Shown: positions 7,757 to 41,682 of the stretch, piece after piece
How positions within the stretch are numbered: position 1 is the first letter of the stretch
How the letters are laid out: every line of letters begins with the position of its first letter
Assembly (NCBI RefSeq): GCF_026126405.1
Contig: NZ_JAFMTQ010000001.1
Span: 1-64,000 of the forward strand
Direction: 5' to 3'
DNA: 64,000 nucleotides
DNA from: Aureitalea sp. L0-47
GTDB taxonomy: Bacteria > Bacteroidota > Bacteroidia > Flavobacteriales > Flavobacteriaceae
Translations under genes and position numbers: made by a program
Notes under the pieces: model-generated
Databases searched by the model: none
What the model was told of the DNA's origin: nothing
The model's input: the letters and a program-made list of their open reading frames with translations, nothing else

Positions 7757-7766
7757 AGTTTAACCT

Positions 7767-8669
7767 TTAAACCCAATTCCTGGGATTTTTCAAAACATTT
7801 TCCAATTTTTCTTCCTCACTTCCCGGCTCAGGCTGAAAATCATAACGCCATTGCACATGAGGAGGCAAACTCATAAGAATACTCTCAATCCTTCCATTGG
7901 TTCTCAACCCAAACAGGGTCCCTTTATCGTGCACCAGGTTGAATTCCACATAGCGCCCTCGCCGTATTTCCTGCCAGTCGCGATGATTTTGCTCGTATAG
8001 AAGGTCCTTTCTGCGGTTTACTATGGGAACATAGGCTTCGAGAAAGCTGTCGCCTACTTCAGTAATAAAATCATACCAGCGCGCCAGGGACATGTCATCA
8101 ACAGGCTTTAAATAATCGAAGAAAAGCCCTCCGATTCCCCTGGCTTCGTTTCGGTGCGAATTGTGGAAGTATTCATCACATCGTTTTTTGAATTTGGGGT
8201 AAAATTCCGAATCGTGACTGTCACAGGCATTCTTGCATACCGTATGAAAATGAACTGCATCTTCCTCGAAAAGATAATAGGGAGTTAGATCCTGCCCTCC
8301 GCCAAACCACTGAGTAGCGATGTTTCCTTCAGAATCGTATAGTTCGAAATAACGCCAGTTGGCATGCACCGTTGGGACAAATGGATTTACAGGATGGATC
8401 ACCAGGCTTAACCCACAGGCGAAGAAATCGGCGTCACTTACACCGAAATACTGTTGCATACTCTCTGGCAGTTTTCCGTGTACTTCACTGATGTTCACAC
8501 CGCCTTTCTCAAATACATTTCCCTCCTGGATTACCCGTGTTCTTCCACCACCACCTTCGGGGCGCTCCCAAAGATCTTCTTTGAAAGTGGCTTTTCCGTC
8601 TATGTCCTCGAGTGCTGAGGTGATAGTGTTCTGAAGGTCGCGTATATAAGTTACAAACTGCTCTTTCAT
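7767..8669 (-). CDS. hemF: Oxygen-dependent coproporphyrinogen III oxidase
   Basis: HemF oxidatively decarboxylates coproporphyrinogen III to protoporphyrinogen IX using O2. The 300-residue protein carries the family hallmarks: GGGGRTRV near residue 40, WFGGGQDLTPYYLFEEDAVHFH in the middle, GIGGLFFDY, and GRYVEFNLVHDKGTLFGLRTNGRIESILMSLPP near the C-terminus. Its start codon overlaps the stop of the EI24 gene by 4 bp (ATGA), and hemB follows after 10 bp, indicating translational coupling within the heme operon. Using the oxygen-dependent isozyme implies aerobic life; an oxygen-independent HemN/HemW may exist elsewhere. Confidence 0.97.
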   Translation of the reverse strand: MKEQFVTYIRDLQNTITSALEDIDGKATFKEDLWERPEGGGGRTRVIQEGNVFEKGGVNISEVHGKLPESMQQYFGVSDADFFACGLSLVIHPVNPFVPTVHANWRYFELYDSEGNIATQWFGGGQDLTPYYLFEEDAVHFHTVCKNACDSHDSEFYPKFKKRCDEYFHNSHRNEARGIGGLFFDYLKPVDDMSLARWYDFITEVGDSFLEAYVPIVNRRKDLLYEQNHRDWQEIRRGRYVEFNLVHDKGTLFGLRTNGRIESILMSLPPHVQWRYDFQPEPGSEEEKLENVLKNPRNWV

Positions 8670-9409
8670 TTTTCTTCTGAAGGGTTTAAGATCTTAACGG
8701 TCTCGGTTGTTGCGGCGGTTACCGATAGTGGAAGGACCAGGATAATACCAATAACAGGTATTAGCAACATCAGCATGAAAACCATACCGTTACCGATGGC
8801 AATTCCGCGGTGATCACTCACAAACCGGACACTTTTTGTATAACCAAGATGTCGTTCCAATGTATAGTCCATATTTCCGAAGCCTGCGTAATAGGATTGT
8901 ACGAAAAACAGGAGGAAACCGGATAAAAAGCCAATCACAGGGATGAAGCCAAGTATAAAAATTGGTATTGAAAGAAAGATCTCCATGATGAGGTTTCTTC
9001 CATTTACTTTTATGCCTCGCCAGAGCTGAGCCATAAAGGACGTATTCCGGTGTTCGGGTGTAATACCAGTTATGTGTGCCTCGATCTTTTCTGAAACAGG
9101 ACTCATAAAGGGTGCGCTTAACGCGAGGACAATATGTTTATATAGAATGAGACCAAGGGCGACGATGATAAGCCCACCTATAAAGTCACTAATCGCTCTG
9201 AAAGTCTCCGACCCCCATTCCCAAACCCAGGCTTTTGCGATGAATCCTCCAATATTGTCAGAAAGGCCATAAGCGCCAAAACCAACTAGCACAGCAATGA
9301 CCACACTAATTAGGATGGGAACACCGAAATATTTCCACAACCCCAGGTCGCTTATTAGCTTAAAAGTTCCACTGTAGGCTCGTAGTCCTCGAATTATATT
9401 TTTAAACAT
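8666..9409 (-). CDS. EI24/CysZ-like multi-spanning membrane protein
   Basis: A 247-residue membrane protein with four to six hydrophobic segments (about residues 27-50, 75-100, 140-170, 205-232). The FMSPVSEKIEAHITG segment after the second hydrophobic region and the overall pattern match the EI24 (Etoposide-induced 2.4/CysZ) family. CysZ members import sulfate, but Bacteroidetes members have no assigned substrate. Its start overlaps the stop of the upstream unknown gene by one base (TAATG) and its stop overlaps hemF by 4 bp, so it is tightly embedded in the heme operon. A role in heme or precursor trafficking is possible but unproven. Confidence 0.85.
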   Translation of the reverse strand: MFKNIIRGLRAYSGTFKLISDLGLWKYFGVPILISVVIAVLVGFGAYGLSDNIGGFIAKAWVWEWGSETFRAISDFIGGLIIVALGLILYKHIVLALSAPFMSPVSEKIEAHITGITPEHRNTSFMAQLWRGIKVNGRNLIMEIFLSIPIFILGFIPVIGFLSGFLLFFVQSYYAGFGNMDYTLERHLGYTKSVRFVSDHRGIAIGNGMVFMLMLLIPVIGIILVLPLSVTAATTETVKILNPSEEK

Positions 9410-9900
9410 TATTCTGAAATATACACTAACTGATCCTCATCAGCTGAAATTTCTTCAATTCTTGCAATATTTATGGCATTTTCGGTCATTTTCAGCAATT
9501 TTTCGACGTTTTCCATCATATTTTCAGAAAAACCAACTAAAAACTGTTCCCTCCCAATTCTGTTATTATGCAAATCCATGGCAACATCCAATGGTTCGTT
9601 TTTTGTCACTTTTTCATATAAATCTGTGACTTTTTTAGCCCATTTAGATGATTTTCTGTCATTTTTAAGCCATTTTTGGCAAAAACGGCAAATTTCAAAG
9701 TTCCAAAGTGCATGGCGAAAAGCATTGGCCTTTCCGTTGCCGTGATGGGCCATTTTCCCAAACCGCGCATCGCAAATTTTAACGGTATATTTCGATGCTC
9801 GTATGGTAGGTGCGATCAAGAACGGATTCGTTACAAAGAGAAGCCCAAAACGAAAGAGTTGTGGGATGCTCATTTGTCGAATACGTCTCCAGATATTCAT
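9409..9900 (-). CDS. Conserved protein with NAFRHALWN / DLHNNRIGR motifs
   Basis: 163 residues, basic at the N-terminus with a weak hydrophobic patch (residues 14-29). Two strongly patterned motifs stand out, KANAFRHALWN (about residues 58-68) and AMDLHNNRIGRE (about 106-117). They suggest a small helical domain with conserved His/Asn/Asp/Arg residues, probably the family catalogued as DUF6973; I give this from memory and cannot confirm it. It is wedged between hemE (2 bp gap) and the EI24 gene (1 bp overlap), so it is co-expressed with heme synthesis. Its low-GC, Lys/Phe-rich codons differ slightly from hemE. Function unknown. Confidence 0.8.
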   Translation of the reverse strand: MNIWRRIRQMSIPQLFRFGLLFVTNPFLIAPTIRASKYTVKICDARFGKMAHHGNGKANAFRHALWNFEICRFCQKWLKNDRKSSKWAKKVTDLYEKVTKNEPLDVAMDLHNNRIGREQFLVGFSENMMENVEKLLKMTENAINIARIEEISADEDQLVYISE

Positions 9901-9902
9901 TG

Positions 9903-10931
9903 TTAGTCCGTTCGATACGATTTCACCGCTTCTATAAATGCAGCTGCATTCTCTACAGGTACATTGGGTAAAATTCCATGACCTAAATTTACAATATATC
10001 GGTCTTTACCAAATTCATCTATCATCTGCTTCACCATTCGTTTTATTTCTGAAGGAGGACTAAATAAGCGCGATGGATCGAAATTTCCCTGTAAAGTTAT
10101 TTGTCCGCCGGTCAGGTATCTTGCATTCCCGGGAGAACAGGTCCAGTCCACGCCCAATGCTGAGGCCCCGCTTTTCGCCATGGTATCCAACGCAAACCAG
10201 CATCCTTTTCCGAAAGCAATTACATGAGTTTCGTCCTTCAGGGCATCAATGATCTGCTGAATATATTTCCAGCTGAATTCCTGGTAATCCTCCGGAGACA
10301 ACATCCCTCCCCAGCTGTCGAACACCTGTACTGCATTAACGCCTGCCTTTACTTTTTCCTTGAGATAAGCAATGGTCGTGTCCGTTATTCGCCGGAGTAG
10401 ATCATGCGCCACCTTTGGATCTGTAAAACATAACTCCTTGGCCTTAGCAAAGTTTTTGGAGCCCTGGCCTTCTACACAGTAGCATAAGATAGTCCACGGA
10501 CTTCCGGCAAAACCGATAAGCGGGATCTCATCGTTTAATTTTTCCTTGGTCATTTTAATGGCATCCATCACATAGCCAAGGGAATCCTGAATATCCGGGA
10601 TGATAACCTTGTCCATGTCTTTTTCCGAACGGATTGGGTCCGGTAGCCAAGGCCCTACACCGGGTTTCATTTCCACATGAATGTTCATGGCCTGGGGGAT
10701 AACAAGTATGTCGCTGAAAAGGATAGCAGCATCCATACCGTATCTGCGAATGGGTTGAACAGTGATCTCACTGGCCAATTCCGGGGTCTGACAACGAGTA
10801 AAGAAATCGTACTTCGCTTTGATCTCCATAAATTCCGGCAAATAGCGCCCAGCTTGTCGCATCATCCATACCGGAGGGCGCTCAACACTCTCTCCTCGCA
10901 GGGCCTTCAGAAATAAATCGTTCTTAATCAT
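9903..10931 (-). CDS. hemE: Uroporphyrinogen decarboxylase
   Basis: HemE removes four acetate carboxyls from uroporphyrinogen III to give coproporphyrinogen III. The protein is 342 residues, the normal size. The N-terminal [15 protein letters not shown] substrate-binding loop is intact, followed by [15 protein letters not shown] with the catalytic Asp, and GFAGSPWT. The ATG overlaps the hemD end by 8 bp, so translation is probably coupled. Confidence 0.97.
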
Positions 10932-11586: not shown

Positions 11587-12491
11587 TGCGCTTTCCGTAT
11601 CTCCTCCATTAATTCCTTCCCGCCCTCATTCAATAATTCAATCGCGCTCGACTTTCCTAAGTCCAAATGCTCACCTAGTGAAATACTCTTCTTAACATCA
11701 AGCTTTTGCTTACCGTCGAGGGAAAGTAGTGTCCCTTGGAAATGAACGGTGTCGTCCGAGATCGTTGCCAGGGCGCCAATAGGGGCCGTACAACCGCCTT
11801 CCAGAACATTGAGGAATTCACGCTCGACACCTGTACAGATAGCCGATTCCTCGTGGTTAAGTTTTTCAGTGACTTCCCTGCTAAAATCATCAGTTTCCAA
11901 TGCTACAACTACCATAGCCCCTTGAGCAGGCGCGGGTACCATCCAGTGCAGCGATTCGAATTCGTCCGGCAATACATTGATCCTCTCCAGGCCGGCTCTT
12001 GCGAAAATAGCACCTTGCCAATTGTTATCGGATAGTTTCTGCAGTCGGGTATTTACATTCCCGCGCAACCCAACCACTTTGTGATCTGGATAACGATTGA
12101 GCCATTGAGCCTTTCTGCGCAGACTACCGGTGGCAATGGTGCAGGACCCATCGGGATGAAATTCCCCCTTGTGAATCAGTATGTCTTCAGAAGATGCCCT
12201 TTCCAGTACGGCGGTTTGTACTATGCCTTTGGGTAGGAGGGTTGGGACATCTTTCATGCTGTGAACGGCAATATCCACCTCTCCGTTTAGCATAGCAATA
12301 TCAAGGGTCTTGGTAAAAATGCCCGTAATACCTAATTCATATAGGGGTTGATTTAGGATGAGATCACCGGTGGATTTCACGGGAACTAGTTCCGCTTGGT
12401 ATCCCAGCTTTTCTAAAGCTGATTTCACCGTGTTGGCCTGCCAAAGGGCCAGGGTACTGTCCCTCGTCCCGATTCTTATGATTTTGCTCAC
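11583..12491 (-). CDS. hemC: Hydroxymethylbilane synthase (porphobilinogen deaminase)
   Basis: HemC polymerises four porphobilinogens onto a dipyrromethane cofactor. The 302-residue protein begins MSKIIRIGTRDSTLALWQA, has HSMKDVP in the first domain, the catalytic-site LRGNVNTRLQKL, and EGGCTAPIGALA, whose Cys carries the cofactor. It starts 2 bp after hemA ends and overlaps hemD by 4 bp. Confidence 0.97.
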   Translation of the reverse strand: MSKIIRIGTRDSTLALWQANTVKSALEKLGYQAELVPVKSTGDLILNQPLYELGITGIFTKTLDIAMLNGEVDIAVHSMKDVPTLLPKGIVQTAVLERASSEDILIHKGEFHPDGSCTIATGSLRRKAQWLNRYPDHKVVGLRGNVNTRLQKLSDNNWQGAIFARAGLERINVLPDEFESLHWMVPAPAQGAMVVVALETDDFSREVTEKLNHEESAICTGVEREFLNVLEGGCTAPIGALATISDDTVHFQGTLLSLDGKQKLDVKKSISLGEHLDLGKSSAIELLNEGGKELMEEIRKAQ

Positions 12492-12493
12492 AC

Positions 12494-13759
12494 CTATTGG
12501 GTTGGTAGTTTAAAAACTTGCTTAATCAGTTCAATGCTTTCTGAAGTAGGGGCGTCGCTGTTTTTAAGGTGATTCGCAAATTGGGTAGTGATCTTTTGGA
12601 TAACCCGATCGGTAACAACGCTGGCTTGTTCCTCGTTAAAATCGGAAAATTTCTTCCTTTGGTTATCGATCTCTCCTTCCTTGATCTCGGCAAGTTTTAG
12701 CTTAAGCGCTTTAAGGGTGGGGGCAAACTTTCTGTTTTCAGCCCAGGTATTAAATTCTTCCTCGATTATCTCAATGATCTTTTCTGCCATTGGGACTTGT
12801 GATTGCCTGTGTTCCAGAGTACTATCAGTCACTTTTACCAGCTCGTCCAGGTGTACCAGGGTAACCATTTCGTTTTCCGTCACATCGGGTGAGACGTTCT
12901 TCGGAATGGACAGGTCTAGAATAAGCAGCGGTTGTTTCAGGTGAAGCAGATCTTTATTTATCGTAGGGTTTTGAGCTCCCGTAGCGACAATTAGAACATC
13001 ACTGTGCGCTATTTCCGATTCAATTTCCGAATAATCCTTAACAACCAGGTTGAATTTCCCGGCCATTTCTTCGGCTTTCGGTTTGGTGCGATTTATAAGC
13101 GTGATATGTTTGTTTTGGGTATGTTTTATGAGGTTTTCACAGGTGTTTCGACCAATTTTACCAATTCCGAAGAGTAAAATATCCTTTTCAGAAACATAAG
13201 GAACACGTGCCATTATATACTGAACCGCTGCAAAACTCACGGAAGTTGCACCTGAAGAAAGTTCGGTTTCATTCTTGATCCTTTTACTTGCCTGGATCAC
13301 CGCGTTGGCCAGCCGCTCCATATATGCGTTGAGAATGCCCATTTTTTTAGACAATCTGAATCCTTTTCTCAACTGACTAATGATCTCGAAATCACCTAGT
13401 ATCTGGCTATCAAGTCCTGTTGCGACTTTAAAAAGATGTGATACCGCTTCTTTTTCCCGATAAACATAGGCTACGGTTTCAAATTCTTCAGCTGTACCAT
13501 TTGTGAATTGGCAAAGGAGTTCGATGAGTACCTCGGGTGAAGAGGCAAATCCGTAAAGTTCGGTGCGATTGCAGGTTGAGAGGGCACTTAAAGAAGTAAT
13601 TCCCTGCTTTCTTGCTTGTTCAAGTAGCTGAATATTAGCTTCTTCAGTCAAACTAAAATGACCCCGAGTTTCGGCGTCGGCTTTTTGGTAGCTCAACCCG
13701 ATTGCATAGAAATGCAATGCTCCCTGAGGATTTGTAAACGATTTACCGTTAGAATTCAT
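12494..13759 (-). CDS. hemA: Glutamyl-tRNA reductase
   Basis: First step of the C5 heme pathway: reduction of Glu-tRNA(Glu) to glutamate-1-semialdehyde. The start at 13759 (MNSNGKSFTNPQ) is preferred over 13816 because a promoter-like TATTTTTG lies just upstream and the extra 19 residues are unlike the family. This gives 421 residues. ALSTCNRTELYGF holds the catalytic Cys; GIGKIGRNTCENL is the NADPH-binding Rossmann turn; the C-terminal dimerisation helix runs from about residue 320. It heads the operon hemACDE-orf-EI24-hemFB and is divergent from an AraC regulator that may control it. The next enzyme, HemL, is not in this window. Confidence 0.95.
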   Translation of the reverse strand: MNSNGKSFTNPQGALHFYAIGLSYQKADAETRGHFSLTEEANIQLLEQARKQGITSLSALSTCNRTELYGFASSPEVLIELLCQFTNGTAEEFETVAYVYREKEAVSHLFKVATGLDSQILGDFEIISQLRKGFRLSKKMGILNAYMERLANAVIQASKRIKNETELSSGATSVSFAAVQYIMARVPYVSEKDILLFGIGKIGRNTCENLIKHTQNKHITLINRTKPKAEEMAGKFNLVVKDYSEIESEIAHSDVLIVATGAQNPTINKDLLHLKQPLLILDLSIPKNVSPDVTENEMVTLVHLDELVKVTDSTLEHRQSQVPMAEKIIEIIEEEFNTWAENRKFAPTLKALKLKLAEIKEGEIDNQRKKFSDFNEEQASVVTDRVIQKITTQFANHLKNSDAPTSESIELIKQVFKLPTQ

Positions 13760-13769
13760 ACCTGAGGTG

Positions 13770-13777
13770 CAAAAATA
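13770..13777 (-). promoter_or_regulatory. Putative -7 box (TATTTTTG) of the hemA operon
   Basis: On the minus strand TATTTTTG matches the Bacteroidota TAnnTTTG element and ends 10 bp upstream of the chosen hemA ATG, implying a very short leader. No good TTG sits 18 bp further upstream, so a regulator could be needed for strong expression. Confidence 0.5.
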
Positions 13778-13887
13778 AAGTCTCATAAAATCAAAAAATA
13801 ACGCCAGAGGCATCAAATATGTCGAAACCTGTTAATTAGTGCTAAAAATTGACATTTATCATCAAATTCGCCTAATTTCGGCATCTC

Positions 13888-28041: not shown

Positions 28042-29790
28042 ATGAATCTAAATAAAATTGCTATGGGTTCTAACTACACTTACCGATTTGCAGTCATCAA
28101 TTTCGGCTATTTCCGAAGCTTCTGCCTACTTCTTTTTGTATTCGCTTTTTTTACCGGCTATTCGCAGTCTTATGTTAATTCAAATTCTTTTGAACTTACA
28201 GGGAATGTTCAAAACACGGATGGAGCTCCCCTGATGTATGCTGATATACATATTAAAGACAGCTTTATCGCAACCTTGAGTGATGATAAAGGCAATTTTT
28301 CCATTGAAGCAAAGAAGGGTGATATACTTGTTATTACCGGCTTCCTGATGAAGACCATGGAATTTCCGGTTACTTCGGAAGAGTTCATGTCTATTCGATT
28401 AGAATCGGACGTGGAGCTTCTGGACGCGATTCTTCTAAGTCAGGAAAAAGAAGAAAAGGAGCGCATGAGAACGCCTTTTCAGAAGGTAAAGAAACGCGGA
28501 CTCGGATATCCAACCCAACAATTCAGGAATAAAGATTTCTGGCCGGGTGATATCAGTGTTTTTGAAACCTTGTATCGAAATCCTTTGCTAGTGGCCACTA
28601 ACGGAGGAGCTATTGCGTTACAAAGATCTCGCGGACAGCTGGGCCAGATGCCGGCTATGGTAATTTTAGACGACGTACCTGTGGATCAATCTATTCTCCA
28701 GCAACTCGATCCTGACCAAATCCGAAGTGTATCTTTTGTTCGTTCGCTTGCGGGAACGATTAAATACGGGAGTTTAGGTTCTGGAGGTGTTATTTATGTG
28801 AAGTCGAAAAACATGGACAATTTTGACGATTCTGAAGACATTGAACCGCGTTCGGCCCTGGCAACAGACAATGACTATGTGGAGGACCTGCTCTCTCTGG
28901 AAGAATCAATTGAAGATTCTCGCTACATCGCCCAACTGAAGTCCGCAGTAACCTTCGAACAGGCAAAATCCATCTACCAGCAGCATACGATAAGCCTGGG
29001 GGTAAGCTCTTTGCTTTATTATTTAGAGGCATCCGAGTTTTTCACACAATGGGATCTGCTGTATTCCCATAAGATCTTGTCAAGATTATTCCGGTTGAGC
29101 AACAACAACCCAAAGGTTTTGCTCGGAATTGCATATCAGTGTGAGCAATTGGGTCGCTTCAGACAAGCTGCCTATGTGTACCAGGAATTGATGTTAATGA
29201 GGCCGGATCATCTTCAATCCTATTTGGACCTCGCACAGGTGTACACTCAAATAGGTCACTACAAATTGGCCAACAGCCTGTACCGTCAGATGTTGTACAA
29301 CAACATCCCAAACCTTGATTTCAGGCCGGTAGAGTTCCAGGTGATCACGGAGTACAGGCGTTTCCTGTCGAAATTTCGATCTAAGGTGAATTTCCAGGGA
29401 TTGCCTAATGAATTATTAATCCCGAATTCCCGAAGAACGGTTCGAATTGTTTTCGAATGGACCAATCCACTCACTGAATTTGAGTTTCAGTTTGTAAGTC
29501 CGGACAAGAAATTCTATAATTGGAAACACACGGCCTTCGAAAACAAGAGCTATATCGAAAGTGAACTGGCCCTGGGATATATGACCAAGGACTTTGTTAT
29601 TGAAGAGGCCGCTCGAGGGGATTGGATAGTGAACATCAACCGATTGAGCGAGGATAATGAGAACATCCCCACATTCGTAAAGTACACCCTGTATAAGAAC
29701 TACGGCTTGCAAAATGAAACTATAGAAACCAAGGTGGTTCCGCTCACCAAGCTGGAAGATAAAGTGATGTTAGATGAGATATTAGAGTGA
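28042..29790 (+). CDS. Secreted CarboxypepD_reg / plug / TPR / DUF2135-like protein (single module)
   Basis: 582 residues. A signal peptide ends near GYSQ (residue ~42). Then come a carboxypeptidase-D-regulatory-like beta-sandwich (~50-125), a TonB-receptor plug-like domain (~150-265, with ILDDVPVDQ and GVIYVKSKN) but no beta-barrel, TPR-like helices (~300-435), and a C-terminal domain resembling DUF2135/YfaP (RIVFEWTNPLTEFEFQFVSP). ATG 28063 (residue 8) is a plausible alternative start, since a TATCTTTA promoter-like box (28032-28039) nearly abuts the first ATG. A stand-alone plug with TPRs suggests a periplasmic scaffold rather than a transporter. The next gene holds two diverged copies of the same module. 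Confidence 0.8.
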   Translation: MNLNKIAMGSNYTYRFAVINFGYFRSFCLLLFVFAFFTGYSQSYVNSNSFELTGNVQNTDGAPLMYADIHIKDSFIATLSDDKGNFSIEAKKGDILVITGFLMKTMEFPVTSEEFMSIRLESDVELLDAILLSQEKEEKERMRTPFQKVKKRGLGYPTQQFRNKDFWPGDISVFETLYRNPLLVATNGGAIALQRSRGQLGQMPAMVILDDVPVDQSILQQLDPDQIRSVSFVRSLAGTIKYGSLGSGGVIYVKSKNMDNFDDSEDIEPRSALATDNDYVEDLLSLEESIEDSRYIAQLKSAVTFEQAKSIYQQHTISLGVSSLLYYLEASEFFTQWDLLYSHKILSRLFRLSNNNPKVLLGIAYQCEQLGRFRQAAYVYQELMLMRPDHLQSYLDLAQVYTQIGHYKLANSLYRQMLYNNIPNLDFRPVEFQVITEYRRFLSKFRSKVNFQGLPNELLIPNSRRTVRIVFEWTNPLTEFEFQFVSPDKKFYNWKHTAFENKSYIESELALGYMTKDFVIEEAARGDWIVNINRLSEDNENIPTFVKYTLYKNYGLQNETIETKVVPLTKLEDKVMLDEILE

Positions 29791-29834
29791 ATGAAGTAGG
29801 TATTCACAAAATTGTTTTAGTAAAGAGGTTGTAA

Positions 29835-32800
29835 ATGAAAAAAATAGTACTCCTTCTTCTGGTTTTTACAGTGACCCTGGGTGTTGCTCAGGAGCGCTCA
29901 ACACCTTCGGGGCAACTAGTAAATGGTAATGTTGTTACTACTAGCGGAACCCCTATCCAGGGGGCTACTATCCTGGTAAAGGGTACTTTCATAGAAACCA
30001 CAACCGATGTGGACGGAGCCTTTCAAATTGAGGCCAATGGTGAAAACACCCTGTTGGTTAGTGCCTTCGGGATGTATTCCAAGGAGGTTTCGGTGGATTC
30101 GTTCGATCTTCCTCCCATCAAGCTAACACCCGTTTCAGAAGAACTAGGAGAGGTAGAGATCAACCAGAAAAGGACGTATGAGAAAAAGAATGTCGTAAGT
30201 GGAAGCGGAATAAGAAAAGCATTAGGATTCAGCGGAGATCAATTTCGCGAACTTTTTGTTGGGGAATATGATCCGGACCTGTTTGTTTCTATAAACAATA
30301 TGCCGGGTATTGAGGCTCCTATCGCGAATCAAAACCAATTTGGAAGTACAGGAAATTTCAGATACCTGGGAATTTCAAGGTTCAGACCAAAAGGATCTAC
30401 AGCTCCACCACCACCTGCTACTATAATCATAGATGATGTTTTAGCGGAACAATGGCAGCTAAATAGTATCCGTCCTGAAATGATCGTGAATATTATGATC
30501 ATAGAAGAAAAAGCACGGATGATGAGTTATTCAGGAAGGTTCGGTAAGAAACTGGAAGGCACAGGTGTTATTGTGATCGACACTATTTATGGTTCAATGT
30601 ATGAAGGTGAAAAGGAGCTCCCATCATTGCTGGCGGATGGCAATGATTACGAGAACGATGCCATTTCCATGAATCAGGCCATGAAAAAACCGGATTACCT
30701 GCTAGCCCTGGAGCAAGCCACCTCTTTTGCAGAGGCACGTAGCATTCACCAGAAACAACTCAATGGCATGGATACTGCCTCCTTGCCTTTTTTCCTGGAT
30801 ACAGCGCACTACTTCAGGAAGTGGGACACGGAGTATTCCGAAGGGATTATGGACCAGCTCTACCAGATGGGCAAGGGGAACTCCAAAGTACTGTTGGGCA
30901 TGGCCTATCATTACGAAAAGCTGGGAGAGCTTGGCAAGGCCACTTATCTGTACCAGGAGCTGATAGTAATGCGGCCCGAACGAATTCAGTCCTATAGAAA
31001 CCTGGCACATATCTACGCTCAGACCGGGAAGTTCGAACTGGCCAATAGCCTATACAAACAGATGCTTTTTAACAGCATTGAAAATGTTGATTTCACCCCC
31101 ATCGAGGCGATTGTTATCAATGAGTACCGAAATTTCCTGTCCAGGCATAAAAACGAGATCGACTATACAGATCTTCCTTCGGAATTACTCATAGCCGGCT
31201 ATAAAAAAGACGTTCGTATGGTCTTCGAATGGACCGATCCTATGGCACAGTTTGAACTTCAGATGGTGAGTCCGAAGGGCAAATACTACACCTGGAAACA
31301 CGATGAGTTCGATTCCAGGGAACTGTTGGAAGAAGAGTTGAAGTATGGCTATGGGATGAAGGAATTCATCATCGACGATGCAGAGCCCGGGGATTGGACC
31401 ATCAACATTGAAGGCACGGGAGAGGTGAATGAGCAACTACCCAACTATATAAAATACACTGTCTTCTACAATTACGGCACACCTGAAGAGACCAAGCAGG
31501 TCCAGGTGGTGAGACTGAACGCTTTTGACAAAAAGGTAACCCTGGATGCCATTAGCCAGAATGCGGCAAAGTCGGATATACGAAAAAGAGACTTGCCTCA
31601 GCGTATCCTGCTGTACTGGGATGCTTCGCTGAACATGCGATTTAAGAACCATCGGAAAGAGAAACAATTTCTGGAATCCTATCTTCAGTTGATCACTTCC
31701 GAAGGAAAACAAGCCACTGTTGAAGTGGTCTCCTTCGGAAAAGACAGGTTGAATACAACTCCATTCACCCTTACATCAGGGAATTTTGATGCACTTTGGA
31801 ATCACCTGGAAAAGATCGACTACAATGGTCCTACGGACTATTCAGAAATACTGAAAGAAAACGATCTCAATGCGCAGATCGCACTGGTATTTTCAGATGG
31901 AAATTCGTTTGCACAGGAACCGAAATCGGAACTGGGCATCCCTGTCTTTTGTATCAACAGTCACCCGGATGCCAATCATGTGGTGCTGAATGACCTGGCA
32001 TTTTACTCAGGAGGATATTATATCGATCTCTACAGTCAAACTGTGGACATGGGTATGGAGAAATTGCTAACTGATGTCGTAGTGAATGAAGACTATGCGG
32101 CTTATAAACGAGGTCTTGACAAGAGTGAGCTTGTCTACGGAGTAATACATAATGAGAACGGTCCTATTGGTGGTGCCAGGGTTCGGGTGAGAAACAGTTT
32201 TGATGAAGTACGTACCGGGAACAATGGCATGTATCGCATTCGTGCAGCACAAGGCGATGTGCTTCAGGTCAAAGCGCTGGGCATGGTTTCTAAAGACACT
32301 GTGATTGGCGAGTCCAAAAAGATACACATTCGTATGGAACCCGATGGAGAGCTACTGGAAGAGGTAAGGGTGATGGCACAGAAGTCGGGAAATGAAACAG
32401 TAAAAACACCCTACGGCGAGAAAAAGAAAGCCGCGGTGGGATATTCAACCCGCAGTGTTGTTACCAGTGATGACATTCGTCCGGACCAGATCGAACTCTG
32501 GCAGATCTTACAAAAGATGCCGGGTGTTGTGGTTGAGGATCCCGGAGGTTCGAATCCGAGGTACAAACTCAGAAGGACCATGGAGATCACTATCCAGGGC
32601 ACCACTTATCCTGTGCTTGTTGTAGATGGCATGGTGTACGAACAAACGGGTCAGCAACCCTATGTGAATGTCCAGCAGATAGAAAGTGTGAAGGTGCTCA
32701 ACTCCCTTAGCGCTACAAACCGATATGGACAGTTAGCGGCTTTTGGGGCTATTGTGATTGAGATGAAGGACGGTTCAGAACGGGAAGTAGTGGACCAGCC

Positions 32801-33752
32801 TGAATTAGAAACAGTAAAGGGTAACGAGTATGATGAGGAAGTAGTTACTATCGAAATGGCCTCTATGAACGCTGAGAAACCAGGCTATCTCAAGGAGTTG
32901 GAAGCTGCCGGGGATTTTGAAAGTGCCAAAACGCTGTATTACGATATCCTAAGACAGAACAATTTGCCATCGGTGAGTTTCTTTTTAGATGTTGGGAAAT
33001 ACTTCCGAAAGTGGAATGCAGAGTTTTCCAACCAGCTGCTTTCCAACATTACTGAGATCGCTCCCAACAATACCAAGGCTTTAAAGTCGCTGGCCTATTC
33101 CTTTGAATCTTTTTCTGAAGATGAACTGGCCACACCCCTTTACGAACGTATTGTAAACTTACAGCCTGCTTCCGTGCAGTCGTACCTGGACCTGGCCGGG
33201 AATTACAAACGGGTAGGGGAATACCAGATGTCGGCAACCCTCTACAAACAAATGGTGGCCAACAGTATTCCGAAGGTGGATTTCAACGATGTAGGCGTGA
33301 TTGTCTTTAATGAATTCAAACAACTTATTGCGCTGCACAAGTCGAAGATCGACTTCAGCGATATTCCCAACGAGCTTATGAAGGTAGGCTTCAAGAAAGA
33401 CCTGAGGCTGGTAGTGGAATGGAACGATCCTATGGCCGACTTTGAACTTCAGTTTATCACACCCGGCAAGAAGTACTTCCCTTATGTGCACAATCTGTAC
33501 GGTGACCAGGAAATGCTGAAGAAAGAAATGGAGCAGGGATTTTCTATAAAGGAGTTCGATATTGAGGATGCCGACCGGGGTAAGTGGACAGTAAATGTGA
33601 AATACTCCGGAACAAGGGATGAGCTGAACCCGACCCTATTGAAGTATACGCTTTACCGAAACTTCGGACTCCCGAATGAAGAACGTATCATCAAAACGGT
33701 GAAGTTGCAGGACTTTGACGGTAAGGTCACACTGGATTCCTTTGTCTATTAG
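29835..33752 (+). CDS. Secreted double-module CarboxypepD_reg / plug / TPR / DUF2135-like protein with VWA-like insert
   Basis: 1305 residues with a signal peptide (cleavage after VAQ, residue 19). Module 1: CarboxypepD_reg ~28-100, plug-like ~125-250, TPR-like ~285-420, DUF2135/YfaP-like ~455-570 (RMVFEWTDPMAQFELQMVSP, GYGMKEF). A VWA-like domain follows (~585-750; D596-A-S-L-N in place of DxSxS, and VFSDGN). Module 2 repeats the series: CarboxypepD_reg ~765-835, plug-like ~868-980, TPR-like ~1015-1150, DUF2135-like ~1185-1300. There is no beta-barrel, so this is not a TonB receptor. It lies 44 bp after the single-module gene and is probably co-transcribed. Role unknown; periplasmic or surface complex assembly is inference. 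Confidence 0.82.
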   Translation: MKKIVLLLLVFTVTLGVAQERSTPSGQLVNGNVVTTSGTPIQGATILVKGTFIETTTDVDGAFQIEANGENTLLVSAFGMYSKEVSVDSFDLPPIKLTPVSEELGEVEINQKRTYEKKNVVSGSGIRKALGFSGDQFRELFVGEYDPDLFVSINNMPGIEAPIANQNQFGSTGNFRYLGISRFRPKGSTAPPPPATIIIDDVLAEQWQLNSIRPEMIVNIMIIEEKARMMSYSGRFGKKLEGTGVIVIDTIYGSMYEGEKELPSLLADGNDYENDAISMNQAMKKPDYLLALEQATSFAEARSIHQKQLNGMDTASLPFFLDTAHYFRKWDTEYSEGIMDQLYQMGKGNSKVLLGMAYHYEKLGELGKATYLYQELIVMRPERIQSYRNLAHIYAQTGKFELANSLYKQMLFNSIENVDFTPIEAIVINEYRNFLSRHKNEIDYTDLPSELLIAGYKKDVRMVFEWTDPMAQFELQMVSPKGKYYTWKHDEFDSRELLEEELKYGYGMKEFIIDDAEPGDWTINIEGTGEVNEQLPNYIKYTVFYNYGTPEETKQVQVVRLNAFDKKVTLDAISQNAAKSDIRKRDLPQRILLYWDASLNMRFKNHRKEKQFLESYLQLITSEGKQATVEVVSFGKDRLNTTPFTLTSGNFDALWNHLEKIDYNGPTDYSEILKENDLNAQIALVFSDGNSFAQEPKSELGIPVFCINSHPDANHVVLNDLAFYSGGYYIDLYSQTVDMGMEKLLTDVVVNEDYAAYKRGLDKSELVYGVIHNENGPIGGARVRVRNSFDEVRTGNNGMYRIRAAQGDVLQVKALGMVSKDTVIGESKKIHIRMEPDGELLEEVRVMAQKSGNETVKTPYGEKKKAAVGYSTRSVVTSDDIRPDQIELWQILQKMPGVVVEDPGGSNPRYKLRRTMEITIQGTTYPVLVVDGMVYEQTGQQPYVNVQQIESVKVLNSLSATNRYGQLAAFGAIVIEMKDGSEREVVDQPELETVKGNEYDEEVVTIEMASMNAEKPGYLKELEAAGDFESAKTLYYDILRQNNLPSVSFFLDVGKYFRKWNAEFSNQLLSNITEIAPNNTKALKSLAYSFESFSEDELATPLYERIVNLQPASVQSYLDLAGNYKRVGEYQMSATLYKQMVANSIPKVDFNDVGVIVFNEFKQLIALHKSKIDFSDIPNELMKVGFKKDLRLVVEWNDPMADFELQFITPGKKYFPYVHNLYGDQEMLKKEMEQGFSIKEFDIEDADRGKWTVNVKYSGTRDELNPTLLKYTLYRNFGLPNEERIIKTVKLQDFDGKVTLDSFVY

Positions 33753-33848: not shown

Positions 33849-34706
33849 ATGAAGAAAATTACACTACCATTATTCTTGCTTTTTTGCTTTTTTTCAATTG
33901 CACAGGAGAATATTATCATAACAGCAACCCTGATAGATGAAAGCTCCGGGAAGCCTGTTGAATTTGCCAATATCGGGTTTGAAGGCCGTGGTGTAGGTAC
34001 CGTAAGTACTCAGAGGGGAGAATTTGAATTGTATTTGAAACCAGGGTTTGTTGCACAGGAGTATGAGCTCATGATCTCTTGTATTGGTTATGAAACTATC
34101 CGTTTACCTTACACCAGTTGGATAGGATTTACAAATTCGGAAGAAAAAATCTTTCTAAAACCTCAAACCACCGAACTGGACCCGGTGGTAATACTTTCCG
34201 GTAAGCGGGAGTATGAAAAACTGGGAAGTGAGACCTATTCGCTAAGTGAACTTGGCTATTGGGTGGATAAGGATGCATTAGGAGGGGAACTCGCTTCAAG
34301 GATCACAATTCAGAATGAAAGAACCCGTCTTCACAATTTCAAATTCCATGTGATCCGAAATGAGGCGGACAGTGTGAAGGTGCGGATCAACATCTACAGC
34401 TGCAGGAATAATATGCCGGGTGACAACCTGCTGTCAGAAAGTATTTATCATACCATTTCACAAGCCAAAGGAATAGAGGAAATATCGTTTAAAGATCACA
34501 ATATCGTTGTGGACGAAGACATCGTGGTGGGTATTGAGATGGTTGAGGCCTATGGAGAGGATCTCTATCTGTCGGTTTCGGCTACCCCTTTCGGCGGCAC
34601 TGCTTATCTGAGGGAACGCAGTATGGCCCACTGGGATGTACGGTGGAATTTCGGACTCGCATTCGGGATGTTGAGTTCGTATCCGGCGAACAGGGCAAGT
34701 CCCTAA
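33849..34706 (+). CDS. Secreted CarboxypepD_reg-like protein
   Basis: 285 residues; signal peptide with cleavage after SIAQ (residue ~19). A CarboxypepD_reg-like beta-sandwich covers ~22-105 (ATLIDESSGKPVEFANIGFEGRGVGTVSTQRGEF). The rest is a beta-rich domain of unknown type (~135-270; VRINIYSCRNNMPGDNLL) seen in other Bacteroidetes CarboxypepD_reg proteins. It shares only the first domain with the two upstream module proteins and is 96 bp downstream, so membership in their operon is uncertain. Its last 4 bases overlap the convergent plsC-like gene. Confidence 0.8.
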   Translation: MKKITLPLFLLFCFFSIAQENIIITATLIDESSGKPVEFANIGFEGRGVGTVSTQRGEFELYLKPGFVAQEYELMISCIGYETIRLPYTSWIGFTNSEEKIFLKPQTTELDPVVILSGKREYEKLGSETYSLSELGYWVDKDALGGELASRITIQNERTRLHNFKFHVIRNEADSVKVRINIYSCRNNMPGDNLLSESIYHTISQAKGIEEISFKDHNIVVDEDIVVGIEMVEAYGEDLYLSVSATPFGGTAYLRERSMAHWDVRWNFGLAFGMLSSYPANRASP

Positions 34707-37362: not shown

Positions 37363-40300
37363 ATGCTTTCAAAAATCATAGATTTCAGTATTAGGAACAA
37401 GTTCTTAATTCTCCTGTTTACTCTTCTTATTGTAGGCTTTGGCCTGTATTCTTTACTCCGAATTCCCATTGGAGCAGTTCCTGACGTTACCAACAACCAG
37501 GTTCAGGTTATTACAACCTCCGAGAATCTGGGTACCCGGGATATGGAGCAATTCATTACCTATCCTGTCGAGCTGGAAATGGCGAACCTACCCGGTGTGG
37601 TTGAAATTCGTTCGATCTCAAAATTCGGATTGTCAGTGGTAACAATAGTCTTTGAGGAAAACATGGGGACCTATCTGCCGCGTCAGCTCATTGCGGAGAA
37701 GATTAAATCGGCTTCAGAAAAAATCCCTGAAGGTTTCGGCACCCCTGAAATGGGGCCTATTTCTACCGGCCTGGGGGAAATCTATCAGTACATACTCGAC
37801 GTGGAACCCGGTTATGAAGAGCGCTATTCAGCTATGGACCTGAGGACAATTCAGGACTGGATCGTTAAACGGCAGCTGTCTGGGATTCCCGGGGTTGTTG
37901 AGGTTAACAGCTGGGGAGGATACTTAAAACAATACGAGGTAGCCATATACACTGAGAAACTCAACGCCATGAATATTTCCGTGAAGGAGATCATGGTGGC
38001 ACTAGAGAATAACAACAATGTTGGAGGTGGTGGATATATAGAGAAAGTGAACCAGGCGTACTTCATTCGCGGTGAGGGGCTGGTTTCGTCTCTTGAGGAT
38101 ATCGAAAACATTGTTGTGAAAAATATCGATGGGTTCCCAATTTACATCCGGGATGTCGCCGATGTGGGTTATGGTAGTGCCACACGTTACGGAGCCATTA
38201 CCGGTAATGGAGAAGGCGAGAAAGTACTGGGCCAGGTAATGATGCTAAAAGGAGGTAATCCAAACGAAGTTATTAATGCGGTACACGAAAGGGTGGCTTC
38301 GATATCAAAAACATTACCTGAAGGAGTCTACATCAATGGTTTCCTTGAACGGAGTGAACTTATTGGCAAGACCACCTATACAGTAGCCGAAAACTTAATT
38401 CTGGGATCCCTGATCGTAATTTTCGTTGTGGTGCTTCTACTTGGTAATCTGCGCTCAGGGCTGGTTGTAGCTTCAATAATTCCTTTAAGTTTATTATTCG
38501 CTTTATCCTTGATGTACCTTTTTGGTGTAGATGCGAATTTAATGAGCCTGGGAGCCATTGATTTTGGGATCATTATCGACGGGGCTGTCATTATCATTGA
38601 GTTTACGGCTTTTCAAATCTCCAAAAAGTTTATTGATAAAGAATCATTGGATTCACAGTCCAGGCAGGAGTTGATTGATGAGGCAACCAAATCCAGTGCG
38701 TCGAAAATGATGAATTCGGCCATTTTCGGGCAACTTATTATACTGATAGTTTTTATACCGATACTTTCACTCAGCGGTGTTGAAGGCAAGATGTTCGGCC
38801 CTATGGCACTTACCTTCAGTTTTGCGTTGATTGGAGCAATGTTGCTTTGTTTGACCTATGTTCCTGTTGCCGCTTCGTTGTTTTTAAAACCTACGATCAG
38901 GGGCAAAAGAAATATTTCGGTGAGGATCATGAGTTTTTTAAACCGGTTGTATGATCCAACAATACGATGGGCATTGCGAAGTAAGAAGCTGGTATTGGTG
39001 TCGGCAGTATTACTACTCGGCGGTTCGGTGTATCTATTTACTACAATGGGAGGTGAATTCGTCCCTACCCTGGATGAAGGAGACTTTGTTATTCAACCTG
39101 TCTTGAAAACCGGAACCTCATTGAGCAAAACAATAGAGATCACCACTAAAATTGAGCAGATCCTATTGGATGAATTCCCCGAGGTTGACCAAGTAGTAAG
39201 CAGGATCGGGGCCGCCGAAGTCCCAACGGATCCGATGTCGATGGAGGAAAGTGATGTTATTATTCGACTAAAACCCAAGAGCGAATGGGTTTCGGCAGCC
39301 ACCAAGGACGAACTAGCCGATAAATTCAAAGAAGCACTGAGCGTACTTCCCGATATAGAGGTTGAATTCACTCAGCCTATTGAAATGAGATTTAACGAAT
39401 TGATCACCGGGGTTAGAGCAGACATTGCTATTAAAATATTCGGGGAGGATCTCGATGTGTTAAACAAAAAAGGAAATGAGATCAAGGCGGCAATCCGCGA
39501 AGTAGAGGGTGCTGCCGATATTACGGTGGAAAAGGTTGACGGGTTGCCGCAGATGAATGTGAAGTATGATCGCTCAAAAATAGCCCGTTACGGATTGAAT
39601 GTTTCAGATCTAAATGAAATGATCTCCATGGGATTCTCAGGAAAGTCCCTGGGAAGTGTTTTTGACGGTGAAAAGAGATTCGACCTGGTTCTCCGGTTGA
39701 AAGAGGACAAAAGACGTGATATCGAAAACATCGAGAATTTATACGTGGATGTACCAAGTGGTGGAAAGGTCCCGATGAGAGAGCTGGCCGAGATCAAGTA
39801 TACAAAGGATGCAGCGAAGATATCTCGTGATGATACCAGGCGAAGGATCGTAGTTGGGATCAATGTTCGGAATAGGGATCTTCAGTCTGTTGTTGATGAT
39901 GTACAGGAAATCATTGAGAGTGAAGTAACTCTACCCGTTGGCTATTCGATCTCCTATGGAGGACAGTTTGAGAACCTGCAAACCGCGAAAAGCCGACTCA
40001 AAGTAGCTGTGCCAATTTCCTTGCTGCTTATTTTCCTACTACTCTATTTCGCCTTTGGATCCATTAAAGATGCGCTGATGATCTTCACCGCGATCCCATT
40101 ATCGGCGGTTGGTGGAGTATTGTTGTTATGGCTACGCGATATGCCTTTTAGTATATCCGCCGGTGTGGGCTTCATCGCATTATTTGGAATAGCCGTACTG
40201 AATGGTATAGTATTAATTGAGCAATTCAAACACCTAAAAGACAGTGAGATGAAAGAAAATGATGAGTATATAGTCTACGGAGCCAAAAGCAGGCTCAGGG

Positions 40301-41682
40301 CGGTATTATTGACCGCAAGTGCGGCCGCACTTGGATTCTTACCCATGGCTGTATCTACCAGTGCAGGTGCCGAAGTTCAGCGCCCGCTGGCTACTGTTGT
40401 TATTGGAGGATTGGTTACTTCAACCTTACTGACCTTAGTTGTGCTACCGGTGTTGTATTCTATCTTCCGGAAAGAACGGAAATTAAAGATAAACCGAAAC
40501 CTGGTTGTTTTATGTTTGCTGCTATTTGGATCATCATTCACTTTCGCTCAGGAAAAAGAGTACAGTATTAGCGAATTGAAGCAGCTTGCATTTGAGAACA
40601 ATCAGGGTTTGAAATCAGCAGATCATGCTGTAAATGAAGCGAAAGCCATGATTGGTACGGCATTCGATTTTGACAAGACCAATCTTTACTTTAGCTATGA
40701 TGAAAACAATCTGGCGTTCAACAATGAAGTGCTGGAGGTTGTTGGTATTCAGCAGGACTTTCTCTTTCCAACGGTTTATTACGCCAGGAAGCGATTAGGC
40801 AAGACCAGGGCGGCTATGGTAGAAAGCACCTATGACATTCGAAAGTGGCAGGTTGAGAAAGAGCTGATGTCGGCCTACAATGATCTGCTGTTTCATAAAG
40901 AGCGAGAAGATATTTACACTTCTCTCGACAGTCTGTATGAGAGGTTTGCCTATGCGGCTAAACGGAAATTTGAGTTGGGAGAATCCAACTACCTCGAAAA
41001 TGTCACTGCAAAAGCCAAGCATAGAGAAATAGCCGCAGAGCTGCTTCAGGTTAAAGAAGATATTGAGAAGGACCTGATCGTACTCCAGGCTATAGTTCAA
41101 TCGGAAGAAAGTTTTAAAGTGAAGACTGAACCTTTATCTGAATTGGATGTTTCACAAATGGACCTAGAGAATAATCCGTTCCTGTTGTATTCACAAAATC
41201 GTGAATTGAACGAACAGGCGGAATTTAAGCTGGAAAAACAGCAGTTATTGCCCGATATTTCCCTTGAATATTTTACAAGTGTCAACCCTTCATTCGACCA
41301 ACCATTTCGGGGTTTCCAGGCAGGATTGAAAATACCGATCCTTTTCAATGGCAAGAACGCTCGCATTAAAGCCTCCAGGATTTCGAAAGATCGAAGCGCC
41401 GTAGATCGAATTCAGGATAAAATTGAATTGGAAGCCAGGTACAATGTGCTTGTTACTGAACTTCAGAAGCAGGCCGGGCTCTTACAATACTATAAGAATG
41501 AAGGTGTATCCCTTTCCGAAGAGATACTGAGAGCGGCAAACTTGGGCTATAAAAATGGGGAGTTGGACTTTTTCCAGTATATACAAAGTGTAGAAAACGC
41601 GAAGGACATCTCACTTTCCTATCTGAAAAGCTTGTATAACTATAATCAAACGGTCTTGAAAATTAACTATTTAACATTGTAA
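37363..41682 (+). CDS. cusA: CusA/CzcA-type RND metal efflux pump fused to a TolC-like outer-membrane channel
   Basis: 1439 residues. Residues 1 to ~1040 are a complete heavy-metal RND pump (start MLSKIIDFSIRNKFLILLFTLLIVGFGLYSLLRIPIGAVPDVTNNQVQV is diagnostic in style; LGAIDFGIIIDGAVIIIE is the proton-relay helix). After the last RND helix a second signal-like hydrophobic segment (LVVLCLLLFGSSFTFAQ, ~1047-1063) leads into an outer-membrane efflux protein (OEP/TolC-like) domain to residue 1439. No in-frame Met separates the parts, so this is a real fusion. With CusB 10 bp downstream it makes a full tripartite Cu+/Ag+ or Zn2+/Co2+ exporter. Confidence 0.92.
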   Translation: MLSKIIDFSIRNKFLILLFTLLIVGFGLYSLLRIPIGAVPDVTNNQVQVITTSENLGTRDMEQFITYPVELEMANLPGVVEIRSISKFGLSVVTIVFEENMGTYLPRQLIAEKIKSASEKIPEGFGTPEMGPISTGLGEIYQYILDVEPGYEERYSAMDLRTIQDWIVKRQLSGIPGVVEVNSWGGYLKQYEVAIYTEKLNAMNISVKEIMVALENNNNVGGGGYIEKVNQAYFIRGEGLVSSLEDIENIVVKNIDGFPIYIRDVADVGYGSATRYGAITGNGEGEKVLGQVMMLKGGNPNEVINAVHERVASISKTLPEGVYINGFLERSELIGKTTYTVAENLILGSLIVIFVVVLLLGNLRSGLVVASIIPLSLLFALSLMYLFGVDANLMSLGAIDFGIIIDGAVIIIEFTAFQISKKFIDKESLDSQSRQELIDEATKSSASKMMNSAIFGQLIILIVFIPILSLSGVEGKMFGPMALTFSFALIGAMLLCLTYVPVAASLFLKPTIRGKRNISVRIMSFLNRLYDPTIRWALRSKKLVLVSAVLLLGGSVYLFTTMGGEFVPTLDEGDFVIQPVLKTGTSLSKTIEITTKIEQILLDEFPEVDQVVSRIGAAEVPTDPMSMEESDVIIRLKPKSEWVSAATKDELADKFKEALSVLPDIEVEFTQPIEMRFNELITGVRADIAIKIFGEDLDVLNKKGNEIKAAIREVEGAADITVEKVDGLPQMNVKYDRSKIARYGLNVSDLNEMISMGFSGKSLGSVFDGEKRFDLVLRLKEDKRRDIENIENLYVDVPSGGKVPMRELAEIKYTKDAAKISRDDTRRRIVVGINVRNRDLQSVVDDVQEIIESEVTLPVGYSISYGGQFENLQTAKSRLKVAVPISLLLIFLLLYFAFGSIKDALMIFTAIPLSAVGGVLLLWLRDMPFSISAGVGFIALFGIAVLNGIVLIEQFKHLKDSEMKENDEYIVYGAKSRLRAVLLTASAAALGFLPMAVSTSAGAEVQRPLATVVIGGLVTSTLLTLVVLPVLYSIFRKERKLKINRNLVVLCLLLFGSSFTFAQEKEYSISELKQLAFENNQGLKSADHAVNEAKAMIGTAFDFDKTNLYFSYDENNLAFNNEVLEVVGIQQDFLFPTVYYARKRLGKTRAAMVESTYDIRKWQVEKELMSAYNDLLFHKEREDIYTSLDSLYERFAYAAKRKFELGESNYLENVTAKAKHREIAAELLQVKEDIEKDLIVLQAIVQSEESFKVKTEPLSELDVSQMDLENNPFLLYSQNRELNEQAEFKLEKQQLLPDISLEYFTSVNPSFDQPFRGFQAGLKIPILFNGKNARIKASRISKDRSAVDRIQDKIELEARYNVLVTELQKQAGLLQYYKNEGVSLSEEILRAANLGYKNGELDFFQYIQSVENAKDISLSYLKSLYNYNQTVLKINYLTL

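Follow-up and report, generated by a model that had tools for sequence, protein, structure and literature searches.

Plugs are usually viewed as the corks of TonB-dependent pores. Two adjoining genes in the window (the stretch of 64,000 nucleotides from Aureitalea sp. L0-47 that was analyzed) encode exported proteins that have plug-like domains but no pore.

Gene Pair and Module Layout

The first gene (28042..29790; all features given here lie on the + strand) encodes a 582-aa exported protein that, according to its open reading frame and domain searches, consists of one NTE (CarboxypepD_reg)–plug–TPR–DUF2135-like module (module 1). The second gene (29835..33752) encodes an exported protein of 1305 aa, in which modules 2 and 3 flank a VWA domain, so that three copies of the module lie in two adjoining genes. 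An earlier note on this DNA had proposed the same arrangement, and the open reading frames were found at these positions. The 582-aa protein matched one half of the 1305-aa protein with an E value of 3.2e-114 (37% identity) and the other half with 1.3e-88 (31% identity); therefore, the three modules share a common descent and do not resemble each other by chance.

CarboxypepD_reg_2 (PF13715) was found in all three modules by Pfam. In module 1 (28195..28437), this SusC-type NTE was sub-threshold (29.8 bits, cut-off 32.2), with a custom HMM value of 5e-31; in modules 2 (29919..30164) and 3 (32133..32375) it was identified by Pfam and the custom HMM, and in module 3 also by Foldseek (9hfj). The custom HMMs were partly built from window rows, including that of the module 1 NTE, so their E values for such rows are not independent. 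The TPR and DUF2135-like parts were located at 28846..29781 in module 1 (PLTEFEFQFVSP; custom profiles), at 30645..31556 in module 2 (PMAQFELQMVSP; custom HMM and alignment columns), and at 32841..33749 in module 3 (PMADFELQFITP). Pfam DUF2135 (PF09906; YfaP) exceeded its cut-off of 22 in a single case, when the 1305-aa protein was scored as a whole (24.3), with the best stretch in module 3; the best-stretch score in a second scan of this protein was 19.5, below the cut-off of 22, and the Pfam scan listed no PF09906 match for the 582-aa protein. The YfaP-type C-terminal domain proposed in the earlier note was thus over the cut-off, by the whole-protein score, in one of the three modules. The same Pfam scan listed no Por_Secre_tail for either protein, as would concern a reading as T9SS cargo.

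The VWA domain (31578..32081) was weak in Pfam (E 0.029); a custom HMM to which this copy had itself contributed gave 3e-55. Its MIDAS reads DASLN and not DxSxS.

Plug Domains without a Barrel

Pfam Plug (PF07715) was listed for module 3 only (32427..32771; 35.8 bits, cut-off 23.9). The plug of module 1 (28492..28815) was seen indirectly, with SusC/RagA profile TIGR04056 (E 5.8e-18) and with a custom HMM that contains the same sequence (7e-31). That of module 2 (30276..30584), which is absent from the custom HMM, reached only 2e-3 and is nearly unrecognizable; therefore, the plug may be out of use in one or more of the copies. The best TIGR04056 stretches in the window proteins covered positions 2–205 (module 1) and 5–210 of 981, from which it follows that a barrel is lacking. 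An outer-membrane beta-barrel was neither detected with TIGR04056 nor predicted by AF2, whose model shows TPR helices after the plug, and a TonB-dependent transporter was ruled out on these grounds. The earlier note's picture of plugs without a barrel joined to TPRs, with a VWA domain in the middle and no transport role, agrees with these results; a beta-barrel in the middle segments or an unrelated C-terminal domain, which it had named as evidence to the contrary, was not seen with Pfam, TIGR04056, or AF2. The first ~210 residues of the SusC/RagA transporters resemble the window modules in having an NTE and then a plug, and the NTE fold of the window model matches 9hfj. Unlike these transporters, the window copies have neither a barrel nor a recognizable Ton box, and TPR and DUF2135 come next.

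The AF2 model of residues 575–1305 (pLDDT 76.7, pTM 0.66) contained a VWA-like part, a beta part (NTE), a small mixed part (the plug region, some of it below pLDDT 50), TPR helices, and a C-terminal beta part. Foldseek returned four matches at E ≤ 0.001, namely the SusC NTE 9hfj (target TM 0.85), the TPR of O-GlcNAc transferase, ITIH1 6fpz with a poor superposition, and a chain of the Flavobacterium johnsoniae BAM complex (9n2d_E); no plug or DUF2135 domain was among the 50 rows listed. BamP of the Bacteroidota BAM complex (NF053692) also has a common CarboxypepD_reg-type match, but the window proteins scored 24.5 and 46.8 bits where 230 are required, and identity with BamP was rejected for this reason. 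A term search of PMC12611786 gave no match for plug domain, TPR, NTE, DUF, or carboxypeptidase.

Relatives in Bacteroidota

Relatives were surveyed with profile A2, a TPR+DUF2135 profile, which had matches in 37 of the 395 Bacteroidota genomes sampled, one of them weak, and in 133 of the 397 sampled from Flavobacteriaceae, the family of the window. At most five candidates were scored per genome, so copy numbers per genome are lower bounds. The window modules matched A2 at 1.7e-112 (module 3), 2.6e-108, and 2.6e-107; A2 contains all three rows, and pairwise matches independent of A2 were also present. Module copies occur in many genera. Among 113 family proteins, a simple hydropathy rule gave a hydrophobic N-terminus in 109, a lipobox-like one in 1, and an internal TM-like stretch in none.

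Domain maps of these 113 proteins comprised 40 VIT forms, 9 with a 285-type domain fused before the VWA (P285-VWA), and, for the remainder, VWA-only forms, single or tandem. Part of the Bacteroidota VIT-VWA-TPR-DUF2135 family holds a SusC front end between VWA and TPR, giving VIT–VWA–[NTE–Ton box–plug]–TPR–DUF2135 proteins of ~1000–1150 aa. In Flavobacteriaceae, forms that lack VIT, and in many cases VWA too, are found in tandem, and one locus has five modules or more. These counts are not frequencies, because 20 regions were picked mostly for having several copies; L046 (start) and L123 (upstream flank) are incomplete, L124 is incomplete as well and, although placed among the derived forms, is probably a VIT form, and L125, a weak partial match in one of the 37 genomes (G236), was left out.

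Judged by sequence, the window modules are related to this Bacteroidota family, and the plug-bearing VIT form is likely their parent form. We infer that the VIT form is ancestral to those without VIT; the direction of domain loss hangs on the position of the root in our tree (114 rows, midpoint root). No VIT was found in the window genome at E ≤ 0.01. In the VIT forms, DxSxS was present in 39 of 40 (the pattern failed in one) and the DUF2135 DxD, read by alignment columns, in 40 of 40; DxD was found in none of the three window modules or the nine P285-VWA forms, in 1 of 10 VWA forms, and in 7 of 52 singles. The C-terminal DUF2135 was over the whole-protein cut-off in the scanned VIT forms and, by that score but not by its best stretch in the second scan, in the 1305-aa protein, whereas the window copies lack both the DxD and GPE motifs of the VIT forms.

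The relatives share VIT and a DxSxS MIDAS with VIT-VWA proteins of the ITIH heavy chain type (bacterial TIGR03788, TIGR04477, and TIGR04286), with which the weak ITIH1 match of the window model agrees. They differ in lying far below the cut-offs of the three bacterial families and in carrying TPR and DUF2135 as extra parts, frequently along with the SusC cassette. PMC12204202 deals with vWA force transducers that are held in the membrane by a TM helix, which is not the topology of the window proteins. In the open-license PMC literature, no description of the module architecture and no combination of VIT, VWA, TonB, and plug in Bacteroidetes was found; DUF2135 was named in no paper there, YfaP/YfaS papers were, by their listings, of no bearing, and VIT together with ECF led to Dictyostelium only.

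Ton Box and Possible TonB Coupling

The Ton box of the relatives raises another possibility. VIT-VWA forms could offer a real Ton box and plug to TonB, the proton motive force then pulling a soluble periplasmic protein and not a pore, with the window copies as relatives that largely lost the coupling; we regard this as improbable. Of the 40 VIT proteins, 18 had a strict SusC-like Ton-box pattern in the linker, namely 10 of the 14 with a plug and 8 of the 26 without one (custom HMM). Shuffling the linkers gave an expectation of 0.04 for either set, and the remaining parts of the proteins had no match; among the NTE-plug pairs of VIT forms the pattern occurred in 8 of 11. The pattern agrees with the Ton box VDEVVV, after the NTE, which according to PMC7782687 was deleted and alanine-replaced in SusC Bt1763. 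Moreover, a TonB C-terminal domain takes this place in the relative L096 (25.0 bits, cut-off 24.6), albeit in one genome only and near the cut-off. Nevertheless, no Ton box, strict or core, lies between NTE and plug in any of the three window modules (module 3 reads EEVRVM at this place), and the derived forms have the strict pattern in 14 of 76 and the core pattern alone in 32 of 76. The strict pattern was fixed after the result of a looser one, which matched twice outside the linkers too, and a recurring Ton box may reflect shared ancestry with SusC and not selection. A soluble client also offers TonB nothing obvious to pull against. One of the eight plug-less proteins with a Ton box (L101) has a weak Plug match; in 10 of the 26 plug-less linkers that were re-scanned, weak Plug matches were seen in 3 (1.7e-4, 0.0066, and 0.022) and none in 7, so a relic plug is only partly supported there.

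More broadly, the SusC front end (NTE, Ton box, and plug) might be a portable, barrel-less coupling part in Bacteroidota, by which TonB grips a soluble VIT-VWA-TPR protein and the proton motive force acts on a periplasmic nontransport complex, in some lineages under an ECF sigma operon dedicated to it; the window modules would then belong to a late offshoot whose plug survived solely for binding and increased in number. We consider this wider proposal quite unlikely. If TonB binds the VIT forms, energized outer-membrane work would reach beyond transport. If it does not, the plug would be an independent binding domain, and annotations of "TonB-dependent receptor plug" in Bacteroidota would need to be re-checked.

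Neighboring Genes

The neighborhoods of some VIT genes would fit another alternative, envelope signaling, in which the family would be the sensor arm of an ECF sigma/anti-sigma-like system and the plug cassette a remnant of a transporter-linked signaling receptor. At five loci outside the window's family (L100, L108, L109, L119, and L122), two genes come before the VIT gene, the first sigma-like and the second with a single TM segment, and a sixth locus (L113) is divergent; Pfam found sigma-70 regions in all four loci that were run (L100, L109, L113, and L122). The second-gene family occurs at 9 of 40 VIT loci, with a hydrophobic stretch that starts at residues 48–59 in the 7 copies tested. 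However, the sigma-like cluster comprises six loci, all VIT, the Pfam sigma scan having covered neighbors of VIT loci. The second gene matches Por_Secre_tail (over the cut-off in 4 of 6 run; the L113 copy without a match) and not an anti-sigma family, and among the sigma-linked linkers scanned (L100, L108, and L109) only L109 had a weak Plug match. We regard the signaling interpretation as unlikely.

In proteobacteria, DUF2135/YfaP lies near alpha-2-macroglobulin (A2M), and the earlier note suggested a protein-trapping or assembly complex with such a link. Its lead from YfaP and VWA was borne out in that the relatives include VIT-VWA-TPR-DUF2135 proteins, which are ITIH-like. The specific A2M link found little in its favor: an MG2-domain gene stands beside a single module in one relative (L094; 32.9 bits, cut-off 32.8), whereas the window genome's sole MG2 match is on another contig (C8; the window is on C11), and no further MG2 neighbor appeared among the few selected neighbors run through Pfam, a sample that may miss others. 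We judge this link very unlikely.

Downstream of the 1305-aa gene lies a 285-aa gene (P285; 33849..34706), which encodes an NTE-like domain (PF13715, 44.4 bits) and a beta-sandwich (predicted fold). It adjoined or was fused to modules in 19 of 39 derived loci and was not found in the other 20.

A Putative Docking Scaffold

The explanation that we put first, still with less than even confidence, is that the 582-aa, 1305-aa, and 285-aa genes form a group resembling an operon, whose products are docking scaffolds, soluble in the periplasm. The plug and NTE would serve as docking faces for envelope partners, whether a protein that binds the TonB box, a transporter, an assembly complex, or each other, while the TPR and beta-sandwich would hold a client or partner and the 285-aa protein would supply a further binding domain. 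The fusion of two modules around VWA in the 1305-aa protein, and the tandem forms without VIT or VWA, are read directly from sequence. From the absence of a recognizable Ton box and of the acidic DUF2135 motif, the window copies are expected to be structural, neither TonB-driven nor metal-dependent any more, with module 3 expected still to use its plug surface. It counts against this explanation that a scaffold is the default reading for TPR proteins and that the window proteins have no tie to any transporter.

Phylogeny and Selection

All three window modules fell in one 29-row set together with other family members (support 100/100). Module 3 clustered with single modules of the same genus and modules 1 and 2 with another line, a split that the tree places before the genus. 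The earlier note's term "triplicated" is true of the window locus, but the family forms arrays at other loci as well.

The copies might also be functionless, decaying leftovers of a SusC fusion, since VIT, DxD, and a recognizable Ton box are absent, the MIDAS is altered, and the plug of module 2 is degenerate. We hardly credit this, given the long open frames in the window, the spread across genera, and whole-module dN/dS values of 0.120, 0.124, and 0.095 in three pairs from three same-genus module 3 orthologues; these pairs are not independent and do not include the window copy, whose own pairs are dS-saturated. In the same pairs, plug dN/dS was 0.017, 0.010, and 0.000, which speaks for the docking scaffold: a plug is kept, and is nearly invariant in one orthologue line, in a protein without a pore. 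Against this, in a comparison with two orthologues, the window module 3 was 78% identical in the plug and 80% in DUF2135, so the plug is not the best-kept part there, and in the 582-aa line the plug was 69% identical versus 87% for the TPR.

Two Module Genes and Their Partner in the Window

The 582-aa ORF (28042-29790), the 1305-aa ORF (29835-33752) and the 285-aa ORF that follows (33849-34706) lie on the same strand. The first encodes module 1, composed of a SusC-type N-terminal part (NTE, CarboxypepD_reg), a plug, TPRs and a DUF2135-like part, and the second encodes modules 2 and 3 with a VWA-like domain between them; both halves of the 1305-aa protein were similar to the 582-aa protein in a sequence search (E values 3.2e-114 and 1.3e-88). 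Pfam and NCBIfam detected CarboxypepD_reg_2 three times across the two proteins, together with TPRs, a weak VWA and DUF2135, and the match to the SusC/RagA model was confined to that model's N-terminal fifth. Plug exceeded the Pfam cut-off in module 3. The AF2 model and Foldseek agreed on the NTE, VWA-like and TPR parts, and no barrel was found in either; the plug region was modelled with moderate confidence only, and the 50 Foldseek matches listed included no plug or DUF2135 structures.

The 285-aa protein begins with an NTE-like domain (PF13715, 44.4 bits), followed by a beta-rich remainder to which no family was assigned (model pLDDT 73.0, pTM 0.53). Foldseek matched its model to teneurin, SusC NTE and a carboxypeptidase D domain and, more weakly, to sandwich folds, among them the Cwp84 lectin-like domain. 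Among 39 derived loci (those lacking VIT, several being same-genus repeats), a homologue of this partner, P285, was a separate neighbour in 11, fused in 8 and not found in 20.

A fourth module copy is located on contig C55 of the window genome. Elsewhere in the window, a 380-aa ORF (62411-63553) weakly matched the TPR+DUF2135 profile (residues 283-355, 2e-6), and a 1439-aa ORF (37363-41682) looks by its sequence like a fusion of a heavy-metal RND pump with a TolC-like outer-membrane protein. The same genome has another barrel-less candidate, an open frame of 257 aa with a Plug domain (G000:C44:91609-91887, L138).

Relatives and Their Architectures

Proteins of 1000-1150 aa were recovered as relatives by a search of 60 genomes, and some comprised VIT, VWA, CarboxypepD_reg, Plug, TPR and DUF2135 by Pfam (at locus L044, VIT 3.7e-23, Plug 1.1e-11 and DUF2135 3.6e-13; at L056, Plug 8.4e-22). 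The SusC cassette was undetected in others, for example by Pfam in L047 and by our own HMMs in L055. A profile built on the TPR+DUF2135 part (A2), which includes window rows, matched 37 of 395 Bacteroidota genomes in 20 of 171 genera (E <= 1e-12; the match in G236 was weak). Within the window's own family it matched 133 of 397 genomes in 94 of 237 genera (E <= 1e-20). Neighbourhoods were taken from the 35 of the 37 A2-positive Bacteroidota genomes not already sampled, and 20 regions were added from 19 same-family genomes, picked mostly for multiple copies.

VIT stood at the start of 40 of the 113 mapped proteins; NTE and plug were both undetected in 22 of these and both present in 11, while four had only the NTE and three only the plug. 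The non-VIT proteins comprised nine of P285-VWA-module type along with VWA-module proteins and single modules; a second NTE was present in some. The window protein alone among the 113 had two complete modules flanking a VWA, and L154 contained at least five consecutive modules plus a partial one at the locus edge. The individual parts are already known, and their combination was not found in open-licence PMC full text; what appears to be new is VIT-VWA-type proteins bearing a SusC front end, plus their VIT-less offshoots. Between two module genes at L041 (6224-7819) and L171 (5764-7362) lies an ORF of 531-532 aa with a signal-like start, and the L041 copy had no Pfam match.

History of the Copies

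In a midpoint-rooted tree, modules 1, 2 and 3 all fell within one set of 29 rows (100/100). Modules 1 and 2 were sisters (100/95), joined by a single module from another genus (100/98), and module 3 clustered with three same-genus single modules (100/100; identity 69-71%). Judging by these groupings, modules 1 and 2 seem to have split from module 3 before the genus arose, and from each other no later than the divergence of the window genome from genome G002. The fourth copy fell in a set of 49 rows containing the VIT forms (100/100), and this position suggests that its line lost VIT and VWA separately.

Gene Neighbourhoods

Two neighbourhoods recurred around family members. In one, an M24 peptidase gene (Pfam) is upstream of the family gene, as are genes that we take, from their sequences, to be menaquinone-synthesis-like. 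The other, that of the window, is flanked by radical-SAM-like and acyltransferase-like genes, each found by gene clustering at 13 loci, none of them a VIT locus. At L094, a 904-aa MG2-domain protein (7603-10317; 32.9 bits, cut-off 32.8) has an M24 peptidase-like gene on one side and a single module on the other. A 178-aa ORF in the same neighbourhood at L042 (3606-4142) has Plug over residues 82-173 (PF07715, 2.1e-9) and is otherwise Pfam-blank. At L163, a YfbK-type VWA protein with an NTE (11697-13838) adjoins a VWA-module operon; our own plug HMM matched it at 3e-13, and Pfam Plug was not listed.

Outside the window's family, some relatives have the VIT gene downstream of genes for a sigma-like factor and a TM protein. 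Sets of a sigma-like gene, a single-TM protein and a VIT-VWA-TPR-DUF2135 gene were found at L100 (1932-6565), L109 (103-5121), L119 (867-5505), L108 (5688-10880), L122 (4524-9510) and, divergently arranged, L113 (4637-9420); Pfam confirmed the sigma identity in the four of these six loci that were scanned, and the single-TM protein frequently matched Por_Secre_tail. Such a set is possibly a signalling operon, and the sigma link, observed in distant members, may not carry over to the window proteins.

Motifs, Constraint and Proposed Function

The MIDAS motif DxSxS was kept in 39 of 40 VIT forms, and both DxD and GPE of DUF2135 in all 40, whereas the window modules lack DxD and GPE and the window VWA has DASLN at the MIDAS position. 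Deletion and alanine replacement showed that the SusC Ton box of Bt1763 is important (PMC7782687). A counterpart occurred in the linkers of 18 of 40 VIT proteins, against 0.08 expected by shuffling, with a pattern set after a first look; a pattern scan recognised none in the three window modules. In one relative only, the VIT-VWA protein of L096 (5741-8980, minus strand), a TonB C-terminal domain in the linker (residues 679-749; PF03544, 25.0 bits, cut-off 24.6) occupies the slot of the plug in other relatives. The VIT forms are plausible candidates for TonB coupling, which is unlikely in the window copies.

The plug is under purifying selection in one line, that of the same-genus module-3 orthologues: among three of these, plug identity was 98, 98 and 100% with dN/dS of 0.017, 0.010 and 0.000, and whole-module dN/dS was 0.120, 0.124 and 0.095. 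Between window module 3 and two orthologues, with dS saturated, identity was 78% for the plug, 80% for DUF2135, 64-67% for the TPRs and 58-60% for the NTE. In the 582-aa line, the TPRs (87%) and DUF2135 (81%) were more conserved than the plug (69%).

The window proteins may form a soluble periplasmic scaffold, which would dock via the NTE and plug. Behind this reading stand the N-termini, hydrophobic by a simple rule in 109 of 113 proteins, a sequence scan that found no lipobox in the window proteins, the lack of a barrel and the plug selection in one line; no step rests solely on plug constraint.
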